A DNA stretch of 60,187 bases from Cyclobacteriaceae bacterium. GTDB lineage: Bacteria; Bacteroidota; Bacteroidia; Cytophagales; Cyclobacteriaceae. How positions within the stretch are numbered: the stretch's first letter is position 1; each line of letters opens with the position of its first letter. The notes beneath the pieces were generated by a model. The model saw only the letters and a list, made by a program, of their open reading frames with translations, did no database searches and had not been told where the DNA came from. The stretch is taken from assembly GCA_022842845.1 (NCBI GenBank), contig JALHOT010000018.1:1-60187 (forward strand), given 5' to 3'. Position numbers and translations under genes: made by a program. Positions 31,584 to 43,205 of the stretch are shown here, one piece after another.

Positions 31584-32594
31584 TTAAAGTGCATGTAAAA
31601 ACTCATAGGCTTTCTTCAACTTTTGTATCAACAAAGCTGACTCTGCAAAATCTAATGTCTGCTGTCCGTCACTCGCTGCTTTTTCGGGTTGCTGATGCGT
31701 TTCATAAATTATTCCATCTGCTCCTGCCATCACCGCTGCCAAGGCTACAGGCTCAACAAACTCACGAATACCAATACCATGAGAAGGATCTGCCACTACT
31801 GGTAAGTGTGTTTTTTCCTTGAGTATAGGAATCGCATTAATATCCATGGTGTTGCGGCTGGCCTTTTCATAAGTACGAATACCACGCTCGCACAAAATCA
31901 ATTTTTCATTACCAGCAGAGAATACATATTCAGCTGAATACAATAACTCCTCAATAGTACCTGATATGCCGCGCTTGATCATCACTGCTTTGTCTACTTT
32001 ACCTAACTCATCCAAGAGGTTAAAGTTTTGTGTATTTCTGGCACCCACCTGAAACACGTCTACGTAATCATACATCTCAGCTATCTGGCTGACCTGCATG
32101 ACCTCAGTAACAATCTTAATACCGGCTTCCTTTGCTTGCTTGTACCATAGCTTCAACCCATCAACGCCCATCCCTCTAAAAGCATAGGGTGAACTGCGCG
32201 GTTTGAACACGCCTCCGCGCATGATGCGCACATCATTATCTTTTAAATGTTGAAGGGTAAGCGCTACCTGCTGCTCACTTTCTATGGAACAAGGGCCTGC
32301 CATAATCGCCAGTTTGCCCTCTCCGATAGTCACGCCATCACCTAGATCCATTTGAGATCTCCCCACCTTCCACTTCCGGGAAACCAATTTATAATCATCT
32401 GATACGCGATGAATATCTTTGATGCCTGGCATATGACCAAGGGTACGCAAATCAAATTCTTGCTTGCCAATGCCAACCAGGTAATGATTACCCTGGGTGG
32501 TTACTTCAGTTGTTTTGTAGCCAAGCTTGGCAACTGCCTGAGCAATCTGTTCTTTTTCTGGCGCTGAAATCGCACTATTAAACTGAATAATCAT
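31584..32594 (-). CDS. aroF: 3-deoxy-7-phosphoheptulonate synthase (DAHP synthase, AroF/type I beta)
   Basis: The first committed step to aromatic amino acids: condenses phosphoenolpyruvate and erythrose-4-phosphate (336 aa). The N-terminal ferredoxin-like/ACT-like domain (about residues 1-75) precedes a KDO8P-synthase-type TIM barrel with IMAGPCSIES (about 93-102), RGGVFKPRSSPYAF, KRGISGTIEELL and the metal-binding VVADPSHGIGIRE. The N-terminal domain in this class can mediate feedback inhibition. It is 3 nt after trpA, so it is part of the trp operon and under the attenuator upstream of trpE. Confidence 0.93.
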   Translation of the reverse strand: MIIQFNSAISAPEKEQIAQAVAKLGYKTTEVTTQGNHYLVGIGKQEFDLRTLGHMPGIKDIHRVSDDYKLVSRKWKVGRSQMDLGDGVTIGEGKLAIMAGPCSIESEQQVALTLQHLKDNDVRIMRGGVFKPRSSPYAFRGMGVDGLKLWYKQAKEAGIKIVTEVMQVSQIAEMYDYVDVFQVGARNTQNFNLLDELGKVDKAVMIKRGISGTIEELLYSAEYVFSAGNEKLILCERGIRTYEKASRNTMDINAIPILKEKTHLPVVADPSHGIGIREFVEPVALAAVMAGADGIIYETHQQPEKAASDGQQTLDFAESALLIQKLKKAYEFLHAL

Positions 32595-37556: not shown

Positions 37557-37567
37557 AATGCTTAGAC

Positions 37568-38974
37568 TTAAATGGTGGTGGCCATAGTAATGGCCTTTCT
37601 TAAAGCACTTAGTTTATTGTTTACTTCTTGCAATTCACTATGGGCATCTGATTTAGCAACAATACCTGCCCCCGCCTGGTAAGTAAGTTGATTTTGCTTG
37701 CTCAAAAATGTACGGATCATGATGGCATGATTGAAGCTTCCGTTAAATCCGATGAAGCCAATGGCGCCCCCATAAAAGCTCCGGTTAACATTTTCATACT
37801 GATTAATGAGTGTAATGGCTTTGTGCTTAGGTGCACCCGACAAGGTGCCTGCAGGAAAAGTATCAACCGCTACCTGAAGTGCGGAGCTTCCTGCTCTCAG
37901 CACACCACTCACCTTCGACACCAGGTGAATAACATGAGAGTAAAACTGCACTTCTTTGAATACCTCTACCTTAACCTCCTCCGCATGGCGGCTCATATCG
38001 TTTCTGGCCAAATCAACCAGCATCACATGCTCAGCATTTTCTTTCTCATCCATTTTTAGTTTTTCAGCCAGGGCCAAATCTTCCTGATCGTTGCCAGTTC
38101 TGCGAAAGGTACCGGCAATGGGATAGATATAGGATTTCTGATTGGCAATCTGTATCTGCGCTTCAGGGGATGAACCCAGAAGACGAAAGCTGCCGTAATC
38201 AAAGTAGAATAAATAGGGCGATGGGTTAATGGAGTGCAAGGCACGGTACACATTAAACTCATCACCCCGAAAGCGAGAGGTAAATCTTCTGGAGAGTACC
38301 AGTTGAAAAACATCTCCGCGGTAGCAATGTTGCTTGGCTTGTTCCACCATCCTTAAAAATTCATCATCAGTCACATTCGATGACTCCTCACTCTCCTGAG
38401 AGAAAGAATAGGTAGCTACTTTATTGCTGTAAATGATCTGCTGCAAACGATCCAACGCGCTTTCGTCTGATGGATTTGATTCACCTTCAACGCTGTGGTG
38501 AAATAAAGTAAGTTCATTTGAAAAATGATCGACAACGATTACGTAGCGATAAAGCTTATACAGGATATCCGGTATTCCCTTTTCAGTTTTCGTGATAGTC
38601 ACTGATTCAAAGAAACGAATAGCATCAAAGGTGGTATAACCAAAAAGACCGGATGGATTATGGCGACTGCTCAGCTGCTTATCTGAAACAAAAGCCTGGG
38701 TGAAAGCATGTAGCTGATCTAGTAAAGCATCGGTTTTTCTTAAGTCACGACTACCATCGGGTAAACGGATTTCTACCTGGTCATCATCCACCTGAAAAGA
38801 AGCTATCGGGTCGCTGCAGATAAAGGATAAACTATTCTCATCACCATGGTAATCAGAGCTTTCGAGGAGAATACTGCCAGCAAAGACATCGCGCAGTTTC
38901 AGGTATATATTCACCGGGGTGAGGGTATCTGCCAGCAGCTTTCTTTCCTTGGTCTTAAGCGTAAACTTTTTCAT
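37568..38974 (-). CDS. trpE: anthranilate synthase component I
   Basis: Converts chorismate to anthranilate with TrpG (468 aa). LLESS (about residues 36-40) is the element that binds tryptophan for feedback inhibition. The chorismate-binding domain includes GDVFQLVLSRRF, IYPIAGTFRRTG, LVDLARNDM and TFPAGTLSGAPKHKA. It is the first structural gene of the trp operon. Its ATG lies 15-20 nt after an attenuator T-run and 78 nt after the stop of the leader peptide. Confidence 0.97.
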   Translation of the reverse strand: MKKFTLKTKERKLLADTLTPVNIYLKLRDVFAGSILLESSDYHGDENSLSFICSDPIASFQVDDDQVEIRLPDGSRDLRKTDALLDQLHAFTQAFVSDKQLSSRHNPSGLFGYTTFDAIRFFESVTITKTEKGIPDILYKLYRYVIVVDHFSNELTLFHHSVEGESNPSDESALDRLQQIIYSNKVATYSFSQESEESSNVTDDEFLRMVEQAKQHCYRGDVFQLVLSRRFTSRFRGDEFNVYRALHSINPSPYLFYFDYGSFRLLGSSPEAQIQIANQKSYIYPIAGTFRRTGNDQEDLALAEKLKMDEKENAEHVMLVDLARNDMSRHAEEVKVEVFKEVQFYSHVIHLVSKVSGVLRAGSSALQVAVDTFPAGTLSGAPKHKAITLINQYENVNRSFYGGAIGFIGFNGSFNHAIMIRTFLSKQNQLTYQAGAGIVAKSDAHSELQEVNNKLSALRKAITMATTI

Positions 38975-38987
38975 TGTTCAGCATGGG

Positions 38988-39028
38988 TATAAAATAAAAA
39001 GGCCTGTTCCGTTGATCGGAACAGGCCT
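38988..39028 (-). terminator. trp operon attenuator hairpin upstream of trpE
   Basis: On the minus strand AGGCCTGTTCC (39018-39028) pairs perfectly with GGAACAGGCCT (39000-39010), extended by one C-G pair to a 5-nt loop. It is followed by TTTTTATTTTAT, an intrinsic terminator placed before, not after, a gene. It lies 24 nt after the stop of a Trp-rich leader peptide. Leader GATCGG (plus-strand 39071-39076) can pair with CCGATC in the terminator arm (39014-39019), with partial extension, giving a candidate antiterminator. Confidence 0.85.
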
Positions 39029-39052
39029 CTACAAATTATTTATTTGTAAACA

Positions 39053-39124
39053 TCAAGACATAGCCGTGCACCGATCGGAGTTCGATCTATGCCACCACCA
39101 TGCTATGTTTACGATTTGAATCAT
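39053..39124 (-). CDS. trpL: trp operon leader peptide with three consecutive Trp codons
   Basis: A 23-codon ORF, ATG at 39124 and TGA at 39053-39055, starting MIQIVNIAWWWHRSN. Codons 9-11 are TGG TGG TGG (39092-39100), far beyond chance for a short ORF in front of trpE. The leader RNA can also fold: ACATAGC (39102-39108) with GCTATGT (39058-39064), enclosing GATCG/CGATC (39083-39087 with 39073-39077). Ribosome stalling at the Trp codons would open these and free pairing with the terminator arm. This is the classic attenuation layout; the function is inferred. Confidence 0.88.
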   Translation of the reverse strand: MIQIVNIAWWWHRSNSDRCTAMS

Positions 39125-39132
39125 GTGAGTAG

Positions 39133-39309
39133 TTATTCTGCTTTTTTACGCGCAACTTTTTTTGCTTTTGCTGGTGCAGCGGGTGCGTCAGCAGTTTTTT
39201 TAGAAGCTGTACGCTTTAATCTTGCCTTAATAGCGTCTTTGCTTCTTGAATTACCGAAAGAACCTATCGTTCTTTTACCTTTTGCTGTTTTTTTATCTCC
39301 TCTTCCCAT
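39133..39309 (-). CDS. 30S ribosomal protein THX family, with basic C-terminal tail
   Basis: A 58-aa basic protein. The first 22 residues, MGRGDKKTAKGKR then GSFGNSR, match the THX (bTHX) peptide, which sits in the head of the 30S subunit in Thermus. The remaining 36 residues are a Lys/Ala/Pro-rich tail (ASKKTADAPAAPAKAKK), an extension of the kind seen in Bacteroidota THX. The ATG at 39309 gives the family start; an upstream in-frame start at 39348 adds residues without similarity. The stop codon is 8 nt before the trp leader-peptide ATG. Confidence 0.85.
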   Translation of the reverse strand: MGRGDKKTAKGKRTIGSFGNSRSKDAIKARLKRTASKKTADAPAAPAKAKKVARKKAE

Positions 39310-39331
39310 AGGGTTGTTATGAATACGGGGG

Positions 39332-39362
39332 CAATAATACAAACGCAATTTGAATTAGCAAA
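39332..39362 (-). promoter_or_regulatory. predicted promoter of the THX-trp transcription unit
   Basis: On the minus strand TTTG (39359-39362) is followed after exactly 19 bp by TATTATTG (39332-39339), one base off TAnnTTTG. The expected start is near 39326, about 17 nt before the THX ATG. No comparable promoter was seen between THX and trpL, where only 8 nt separate the genes, although one inside the THX gene cannot be excluded. Confidence 0.6.
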
Positions 39363-42963: not shown

Positions 42964-42994
42964 ATTGCTAATTGACAATTGCTTTGTACCTTTG
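42964..42994 (+). promoter_or_regulatory. SRP RNA promoter (Bacteroidota -33/-7 type)
   Basis: ATTG (42964-42967), a 19-bp spacer, then TACCTTTG (42987-42994), an exact TAnnTTTG. The RNA 5' end expected from the stem (42999) lies 5 nt after the -7 box, as it should for this promoter class. Confidence 0.75.
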
Positions 42995-42998
42995 CATC

Positions 42999-43089
42999 GC
43001 AAGTCGGCACGACCAGCTCCTGCTGAACTCCCCCAGGACCGGAAGGTAGCAAGGGTAGGCGGTTGTAGCGGTGCGATGTTGGCTTGCAC
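42999..43089 (+). ncRNA. ffs: small bacterial SRP RNA (4.5S)
   Basis: RNA of the signal recognition particle that binds Ffh and guides membrane-protein targeting. The conserved apical domain is CCCAGGACCGGAAGGTAGCA (43032-43051) with the GGAA tetraloop and the Ffh-binding internal loops. The ends pair: GCAAGTC (42999-43005) with GGCTTGC (43081-43087). A T-run (CTTTTTATTT) follows directly. The length of about 90 nt fits the short bacterial form without an Alu domain. Confidence 0.93.
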
Positions 43090-43205
43090 TTTTTATTTCT
43101 CTCCTTGCCTATTTTCAGGCATCCTACAAAATCTCCGCTCTCCTTACCATCTAGTAGACAGTTTCAGTTAACTTTACAGCTCACTGTAACCACTACCACC
43201 ATACC

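Follow-up and report, generated by a model that had tools for sequence, protein, structure and literature searches.

Ribosome-mediated attenuation of tryptophan operons is a textbook mechanism that is known mainly from Proteobacteria. In the E. coli trp attenuator, after which the 1:2 and 2:3 helices are numbered here, a pause hairpin keeps the ribosome and RNA polymerase in step. Within the Bacteroidota, described as a phylum without Shine-Dalgarno sequences (PMC6847099), a "Bacteroidete tryptophan peptide leader RNA" appears in Table 1 of Weinberg et al. (2010; PMC2864571) and is represented in Rfam as RF01692 (Bacteroid-trp). This RNA has been discussed as E. coli-like (PMC6414381), and strong signs of attenuation by leader peptides have been reported upstream of amino acid operons in Flavobacterium psychrophilum (PMC9723704). 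The locus described here was first noted in a reading of the DNA alone (the sequence-only reading), which stated that leaders of this sort are not commonly annotated in the phylum; because RF01692 and the Flavobacterium papers describe such leaders, this claim of novelty is unsupported. A different RNA, the trpB motif (RF04312), is a candidate riboswitch for which its authors allow classic attenuation as well (PMC11109978).

We analyzed a stretch of 60,187 nt from a Cyclobacteriaceae genome, referred to as the window, in which all parts of the putative attenuator are located on the minus strand:

39332..39362, minus strand: candidate promoter of the whole unit, with TTTG (39362-39359), 19 nt, and TATTATTG (39339-39332)
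39133..39309, minus strand: gene for 30S ribosomal protein THX, 58 aa (NCBIfam TIGR04560, 40.5 bits, cut-off 26)
39124-39053, minus strand: Trp leader peptide ORF MIQIVNIAWWWHRSNSDRCTAMS (ATG, 23 codons, TGA)
39100-39092, minus strand: TGG TGG TGG of the leader ORF, read from the sequence
39046..39112, minus strand: leader (1:2) hairpin, in which GTAAACATAGCATGG.. pairs with ..GCTATG..TGTTTAC, with the inner stem GATCG/CGATC
39076-39071, minus strand: antiterminator strand GATCGG, extending weakly into GCA..GGC downstream
39030-38998, minus strand: intrinsic terminator hairpin, with a 14-bp stem (8 G-C) and a 5-nt loop
38997-38988, minus strand: T-rich tail TTATTTTATA after the terminator hairpin
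37568..38974, minus strand: trpE, the first structural gene of trpEGDCFBA, with its ATG at 38974 (Pfam and ORFs)

The 23-codon ORF with three consecutive Trp codons and the terminator with a T-run before trpE, all reported by the sequence-only reading, are present on the minus strand. Its 12-bp GC-rich hairpin is indeed a strong terminator, but the stem comprises 14 bp, eight of them G-C. The pairing that it proposed between GATCGG and the terminator arm agrees with the complementarity of GATCGG (39076-39071) to CCGATC (39019-39014), which covers the upper end of the terminator 5′ arm and extends into the loop. The 1:2 hairpin is predicted to hide the antiterminator strand, and the region from 38980 to 39125 folds at −58.6 kcal/mol compared with a shuffle mean of −30.8 (z −7.8). 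TrpE matches Pfam models PF00425 and PF04715 above cut-off, and its best NCBIfam model, TIGR00564, scores 411.6 bits, below the cut-off of 517.7. It is followed by trpG, trpD, trpC, trpF, trpB, and trpA together with a DAHP-synthase-like ORF, all closely spaced or overlapping; trpE, trpG, and trpD were identified by family matches and the remaining trp ORFs were named from their own sequence. That DAHP-synthase-like ORF (31584-32594, minus strand), likewise named from its sequence, starts 3 nt past the trpA ORF. Elsewhere in the window, a small SRP RNA (Rfam RF04183, 76.4 bits) is encoded at 42990-43091 on the plus strand.

Because TGGTGGTGG occurs at 118 sites in the genome, the Trp-codon triplet by itself is no evidence for a leader. 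Among 3,000 dinucleotide shuffles of 38975-39132, none contained a leader with three consecutive Trp codons (WWW), 39 contained a leader with two Trp codons, and 64 contained a terminator-like site. The trp leader is the only minus-strand ATG ORF of 8–50 codons with WWW in the window; two such ORFs are found on the plus strand, at 37557 and 45095.

We collected the regions upstream of trpE from 130 of the 148 genomes that represent the family of the window (the host family); the remaining 18 (e.g., G122, G067, G142, G091, G056, G014, and G116) were omitted owing to contig edges, fragments, or only distant matches, or were unsampled. A leader was defined as an ATG ORF of 8–50 codons that has at least two TGG codons within three codons and lies no more than 350 nt from trpE. 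By this rule, a Trp leader is encoded ahead of trpE in 128 of the 130 regions, compared with none on the antisense strand and 0–5 per 130 in ten shuffled sets; WWW is found in 104 of these leaders and WW only in 18, and the W-x-W type is present as well. The two uncounted regions are those of G002, which has no leader, and G042, in which a leader with a GTG start was seen by eye. Behind these 128 leaders, a strict stem scan found a terminator in 117 (0–1 of 130 in shuffled sets), and a looser folding scan, run without a shuffle control, found one in all 128.

As TGG has no synonym, synonymous changes cannot separate codon reading from a conserved base motif. The strongest evidence that the Trp run is read as codons, with translation itself predicted, is the reading frame: an ATG located 4–14 codons before TGGTGG with no intervening stop is found in frame in 122 of 123 regions, and in the other two frames in two and none of the 123. 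Family conservation, the shuffles of 38975-39132, and the reading-frame test together exclude a chance ORF. Outside the Trp run, most leader bases differ between genera, and the C-terminus of the peptide is highly variable between genera. The variability of the C-terminus weighs against the idea, drawn by analogy from rnTrpL/peTrpL of Sinorhizobium, for which a precedent is given in PMC7298713, that the terminated RNA or the leader peptide might additionally act in trans, and we regard such a role as very unlikely.

Leaders of this kind extend beyond the host family. Among 24 named Bacteroidota loci (L002–L025; L002, L007, and L024 are the same contigs as G033, G044, and G074), all except L012 have a TGGTGG leader. 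By TrpE, the nearest named species is Chryseotalea sanaruensis (85% identity). In the class, trpE was detected at an E value of 1e-100 or better in 46 of 149 genomes; after exclusion of five host-family genomes and of G199, which has almost no upstream sequence, 40 genomes yielded 41 regions (G158 has two, and the regions from its second copy and from G202 are short). A Trp leader is present in 33 of these 41, and the ORF rule identified none in the other eight (G202, G168, G211, G210, G244, G215, G273, and G149). In G244, G215, and G273, the end of a gene that by eye is trpB-like abuts trpE, and an RF01692 match is located approximately 1.3 kb before trpE; the leader thus seems to remain with whichever gene comes first in the operon.

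To assess the antiterminator, we let the segment downstream of the Trp codons pair with the terminator 5′ arm and loop from the same genome and, for comparison, with those from other genomes. Across the 128 family leaders, own pairing scored −12.57 and foreign pairing −10.21, with none of 2,000 permutations as low, and with one genome for each of 71 genera the values were −12.44 and −10.46 (sd 0.29; 0 of 5,000 permutations), although the relatedness of the genomes inflates the significance of such permutations. The 1:2 pairing between the leader start and the post-Trp segment is also stronger within a genome (z −6.2; 0 of 2,000). The capacity of the leader to fold on itself, as the sequence-only reading had it, is seen in the predicted hairpin, the folding energy of the region, and this pairing test. 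Three negative controls were flat: the post-Trp segment with the terminator 3′ arm (z +1.8), the same segment with the trpE start (z +0.3), and the leader start with the terminator 5′ arm (z +0.9). The antiterminator signal is strong as a family average and modest per genome: of the 128 genomes, only 15 have own pairing that ranks in the top 5% of swaps and 50 have own pairing with p 0.02 or better relative to shuffled segments, and 17 of the 71 genera fail to beat their own median swap. For the window, only one of 127 foreign terminators matches the pairing of its own.

The sequence-only reading had suggested a search for compensatory changes. In the 16 type-I leaders, the group to which the window belongs, compensating changes are seen in 33 cells of the leader hairpin and terminator, a level that none of 500 shuffles reached; two of the five measures in the same test fall inside the shuffle range (73 and 145 of 500), and by eye three rows of the alignment look shifted by one base at the terminator. 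The inner 1:2 stem is paired in 91% of cells and the outer CATAGC/GCTATG stem in 66%. The type-I antiterminator, in contrast, is 85% paired and nearly invariant, with three of nine pairs changed on both sides, a number often equalled by shuffles. More telling is that between groups the whole helix is exchanged: GATCGG:CCGATC in type I corresponds to GTGA[AG]CAGC:GCTGTTCAC in other relatives. The two helix types are interleaved on the TrpE tree, where type-I G125 is found next to type-II G073 and type-I G130 next to type-II G083, so the swap seems to have occurred repeatedly and on both sides each time, as judged from this gene tree only.

In a folding model of the window, the antiterminator pairing is 0.79–0.80 with a ribosome on the Trp codons, 0.23 without a ribosome, and 0.17 with a ribosome at the stop codon. 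In 117 of 128 leaders, the value for the stalled ribosome is higher than that for the free RNA by more than 0.1, and in no leader does it fall short of the free-RNA value by more than 0.1. Because 60 swapped terminators gave means (0.557 stalled and 0.153 free) nearly equal to those of the own terminators (about 0.60 and 0.16), this contrast indicates a possible geometry and is not specific evidence.

We then asked how well existing RNA models cover these leaders. With strict filters and approximately 20 candidates scored per genome, RF01692 was found above cut-off in none of 148 host-family genomes and in five of 149 class genomes, and among the 20 of 24 named loci that were submitted to Rfam, one (L022) reaches the cut-off. 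Given leaders in 128 of 130 regions, a main Trp control therefore looks largely unannotated in the host family, and the remark that standard tracks miss the leader was a fair one. The kind of attenuator is already known, its host-family members are largely missed by RF01692, and the fusion to THX described below is a variant of it. A covariance model built from the 16 type-I leaders (R1), a search of the sort that had been proposed, matches 144 of 148 host-family and 213 of 296 phylum genomes at an E value of 0.01. Many weaker matches lie elsewhere in the genomes, some of them paired on both strands like palindromic terminators (e.g., G069:C8), and for this reason the R1 genome tallies are not used as evidence. 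Its best 33 host-family matches by E value, of which 11 are training sequences, are all directly before trpE; the 34th (G081:C4, 45.0 bits) is not.

These searches also bear on whether a Trp-binding riboswitch, a T-box, or a protein-bound RNA is in control and the ORF is incidental. The window has a match to the RF04312 trpB motif that could be read this way, but at 34.6 bits it falls below the gathering cut-off of 59, and membership in that family was rejected. T-box models gave no match at gathering score in the window and none up to E 10 in 38900-39330, and with no T-box or known riboswitch at the Rfam cut-off, both were ruled out. Moreover, what is conserved is the Trp run in frame with an ATG, whereas other bases mostly vary and W-x-W leaders exist. 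We therefore consider control by such an RNA highly improbable.

The ORF upstream of the leader encodes ribosomal protein THX, which scores 27.7 bits against Pfam RPS31, below the cut-off of 32.5, and its stop codon is 8 nt ahead of the leader ATG. The terminator hairpin would serve well as a THX terminator, and with 23 nt between it and the trpE ATG it might do only that, the Trp ORF being a chance occurrence and trpE having a promoter of its own downstream. However, Trp leaders are present in 128 of 130 regions although no THX was found within 800 nt in 97 of them, the frame test gave 122 of 123, and the antiterminator and 1:2 pairings track each other across genera, all of which makes this explanation extremely improbable.

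A close junction between THX and the leader, by contrast with those 97 regions, is found in 18 of the 130 host-family genomes, in which a gap of −1 to 15 nt separates the THX stop from the leader ATG (THX-fused genomes); in 15 further genomes THX is within 800 nt with a gap of at least 20 nt. Among 11 named relatives from the group of the window, the gap is 0–9 nt in nine, two of which (L002 and L007) are counted in the 18 as well, and in the remaining two (L004 and L025) the THX start is masked or outside the scanned stretch. The THX fusion is the unusual part of this locus; it lies beyond the region covered by the sequence-only reading, which did not mention it, and it looks new, a narrow literature search for it having returned no paper.

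The candidate promoter before THX resembles the sigma-ABfr promoters of Bacteroidota. TTTG-N15..22-TAnnnTTG is found directly before THX in 16 of the 18 fused genomes, and the other two (G135 and G017) have a −7-like TATCATTG or TATTATTG there. From the THX ATG to that of the leader, none of the 18 contains the same two-part pattern, and none has a perfect TAnnTTTG in the 40 nt preceding the leader ATG; four of 18 match the −7 box there at five of six positions, as do 43% of shuffled 40-mers. In the nonfused family leaders, by contrast, the 40 nt preceding the ATG include a perfect TAnnTTTG in 70 of 110 cases (3.7% in shuffles), and the median distance from the box to the ATG is 10 nt. If transcription began 5 nt behind the G of the box, as it does in Flavobacterium johnsoniae (PMC6847099), the 5′ UTR of many of these leaders would be very short; in many uncoupled relatives, such as L013, L018, and L020, the trp leader mRNA may thus be nearly leaderless.

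Such promoters in relatives raise the alternative that attenuation is real but that in the window the leader promoter lies inside or just behind THX, which would then be a mere neighbor, and degenerate promoters would slip past the patterns used. We consider this unlikely in view of the absence of both the perfect box and the relaxed two-part pattern from all 18 fused genomes at these positions, the two-part pattern before THX in 16 of them, and the narrow range of the gap between stop and ATG. The transcript most likely starts before the THX gene, and THX and trp are probably cotranscribed. With the spacing as the guide, we lean, if only slightly, toward the view that the leader is translated mainly by ribosomes reinitiating after THX.

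On the TrpE tree, which samples 50 host-family genomes and five others rather than all 130, the 18 THX-fused genomes form one clade with support of 100/100. The simplest story for the order of events is that THX and trp first became adjacent and that a single loss of the intervening promoter followed. We marginally favor a reading in which, in this one clade, the promoter of the trp attenuator was lost and the attenuator turned into a conditional 3′ end of the THX gene, its leader being read by ribosomes that have just left THX; the ribosomal-protein promoter would drive trp, attenuation would be the only Trp-specific control, and a ribosome already in step with RNA polymerase at the Trp codons would take the place of the pause hairpin. 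The fusion offers a natural experiment in how a leader ORF without a Shine-Dalgarno sequence obtains its first ribosome and bears on how RNA polymerase and the ribosome stay in step.

The sequence holds the hallmarks of a classical trp attenuator, namely a leader ORF with adjacent Trp codons, an intrinsic terminator, a 1:2 hairpin over the Trp codons, and an antiterminator mutually exclusive with the terminator. With in-frame Trp codons, covarying helices, and the position before trpE, the sequence-only reading was very probably right in proposing attenuation of the E. coli type, and we likewise regard the element as, with high probability, a ribosome-mediated transcription attenuator of the trp operon. 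The ORF, its reading frame and conservation, the terminator, and the covariation of helices across genomes are supported by sequence comparison, and from them we infer the response to Trp-tRNA. In the mechanism that we propose, the transcript would begin upstream of THX, and ribosomes finishing THX would restart 8 nt further on, at the leader ORF. When charged tRNA-Trp is ample, the ribosome would pass the three Trp codons and reach the stop codon, where GATCGG would be covered or refolded into the leader hairpin, the terminator would form, and only THX mRNA would be made. When charged tRNA-Trp is scarce, the ribosome would stall on the Trp codons and cover the 5′ arm of the leader hairpin; the freed GATCGG would then pair with the 5′ arm and loop of the terminator, letting RNA polymerase continue into trpE.

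Two further observations concern attenuators elsewhere. Two trp attenuators in series precede trpE in ten of the 130 host-family genomes (G074, which is L024, and G106, G079, G080, G011, G023, G146, G037, G055, and G115), each with two WW/WWW leaders whose ATGs are 122–169 nt apart and with a terminator hairpin for each leader; for comparison, chance leaders number 0–5 per 130 regions. A perfect TAnnTTTG is found before the first leader in eight of the ten and before the second in none, and R1 matches both copies in G074. These tandem attenuators provide a test case for whether two serial ribosome-sensing switches sharpen a response. In the genome of the window itself, a His leader MKNTQNINLHHHHHVNHADRGCAMF followed by a hairpin that by eye is terminator-like precedes hisG (L231 from about position 1178; G000 contig C12, about 65.9 kb), so attenuation probably serves a second operon in the same genome.

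Among described systems, RF01692 is likewise a Trp-codon leader RNA before trp genes of Bacteroidota, and the weak match in the window spans the whole model but scores 31.7 bits, below the gathering cut-off of 49. The RF04312 trpB motif similarly combines a hairpin, an antiterminator shoulder, and a terminator before trpB or amino acid transporter genes (PMC11109978), but belongs to Firmicutes and Fusobacteria and, as given above, is matched at only 34.6 bits against 59. A leader-peptide attenuator adjoining a ribosomal-protein gene is also seen in E. coli, listed as "Intergenic (pheM-rplT)" in PMC5371410, although there the amino acid is Phe instead of Trp and the ribosomal protein is a different one. 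Antitermination by a stalled ribosome would be shared with the leaderless trpL attenuator of Sinorhizobium meliloti (PMC7298713), which the many uncoupled relatives with an ATG near the promoter box may resemble in being almost leaderless too, whereas the leader in the window is probably not 5′-terminal and follows THX. With E. coli trpL, the locus has in common a Trp-rich leader peptide and alternative terminator and antiterminator structures (PMC6414381); it differs in that its leader is probably the second cistron behind THX.
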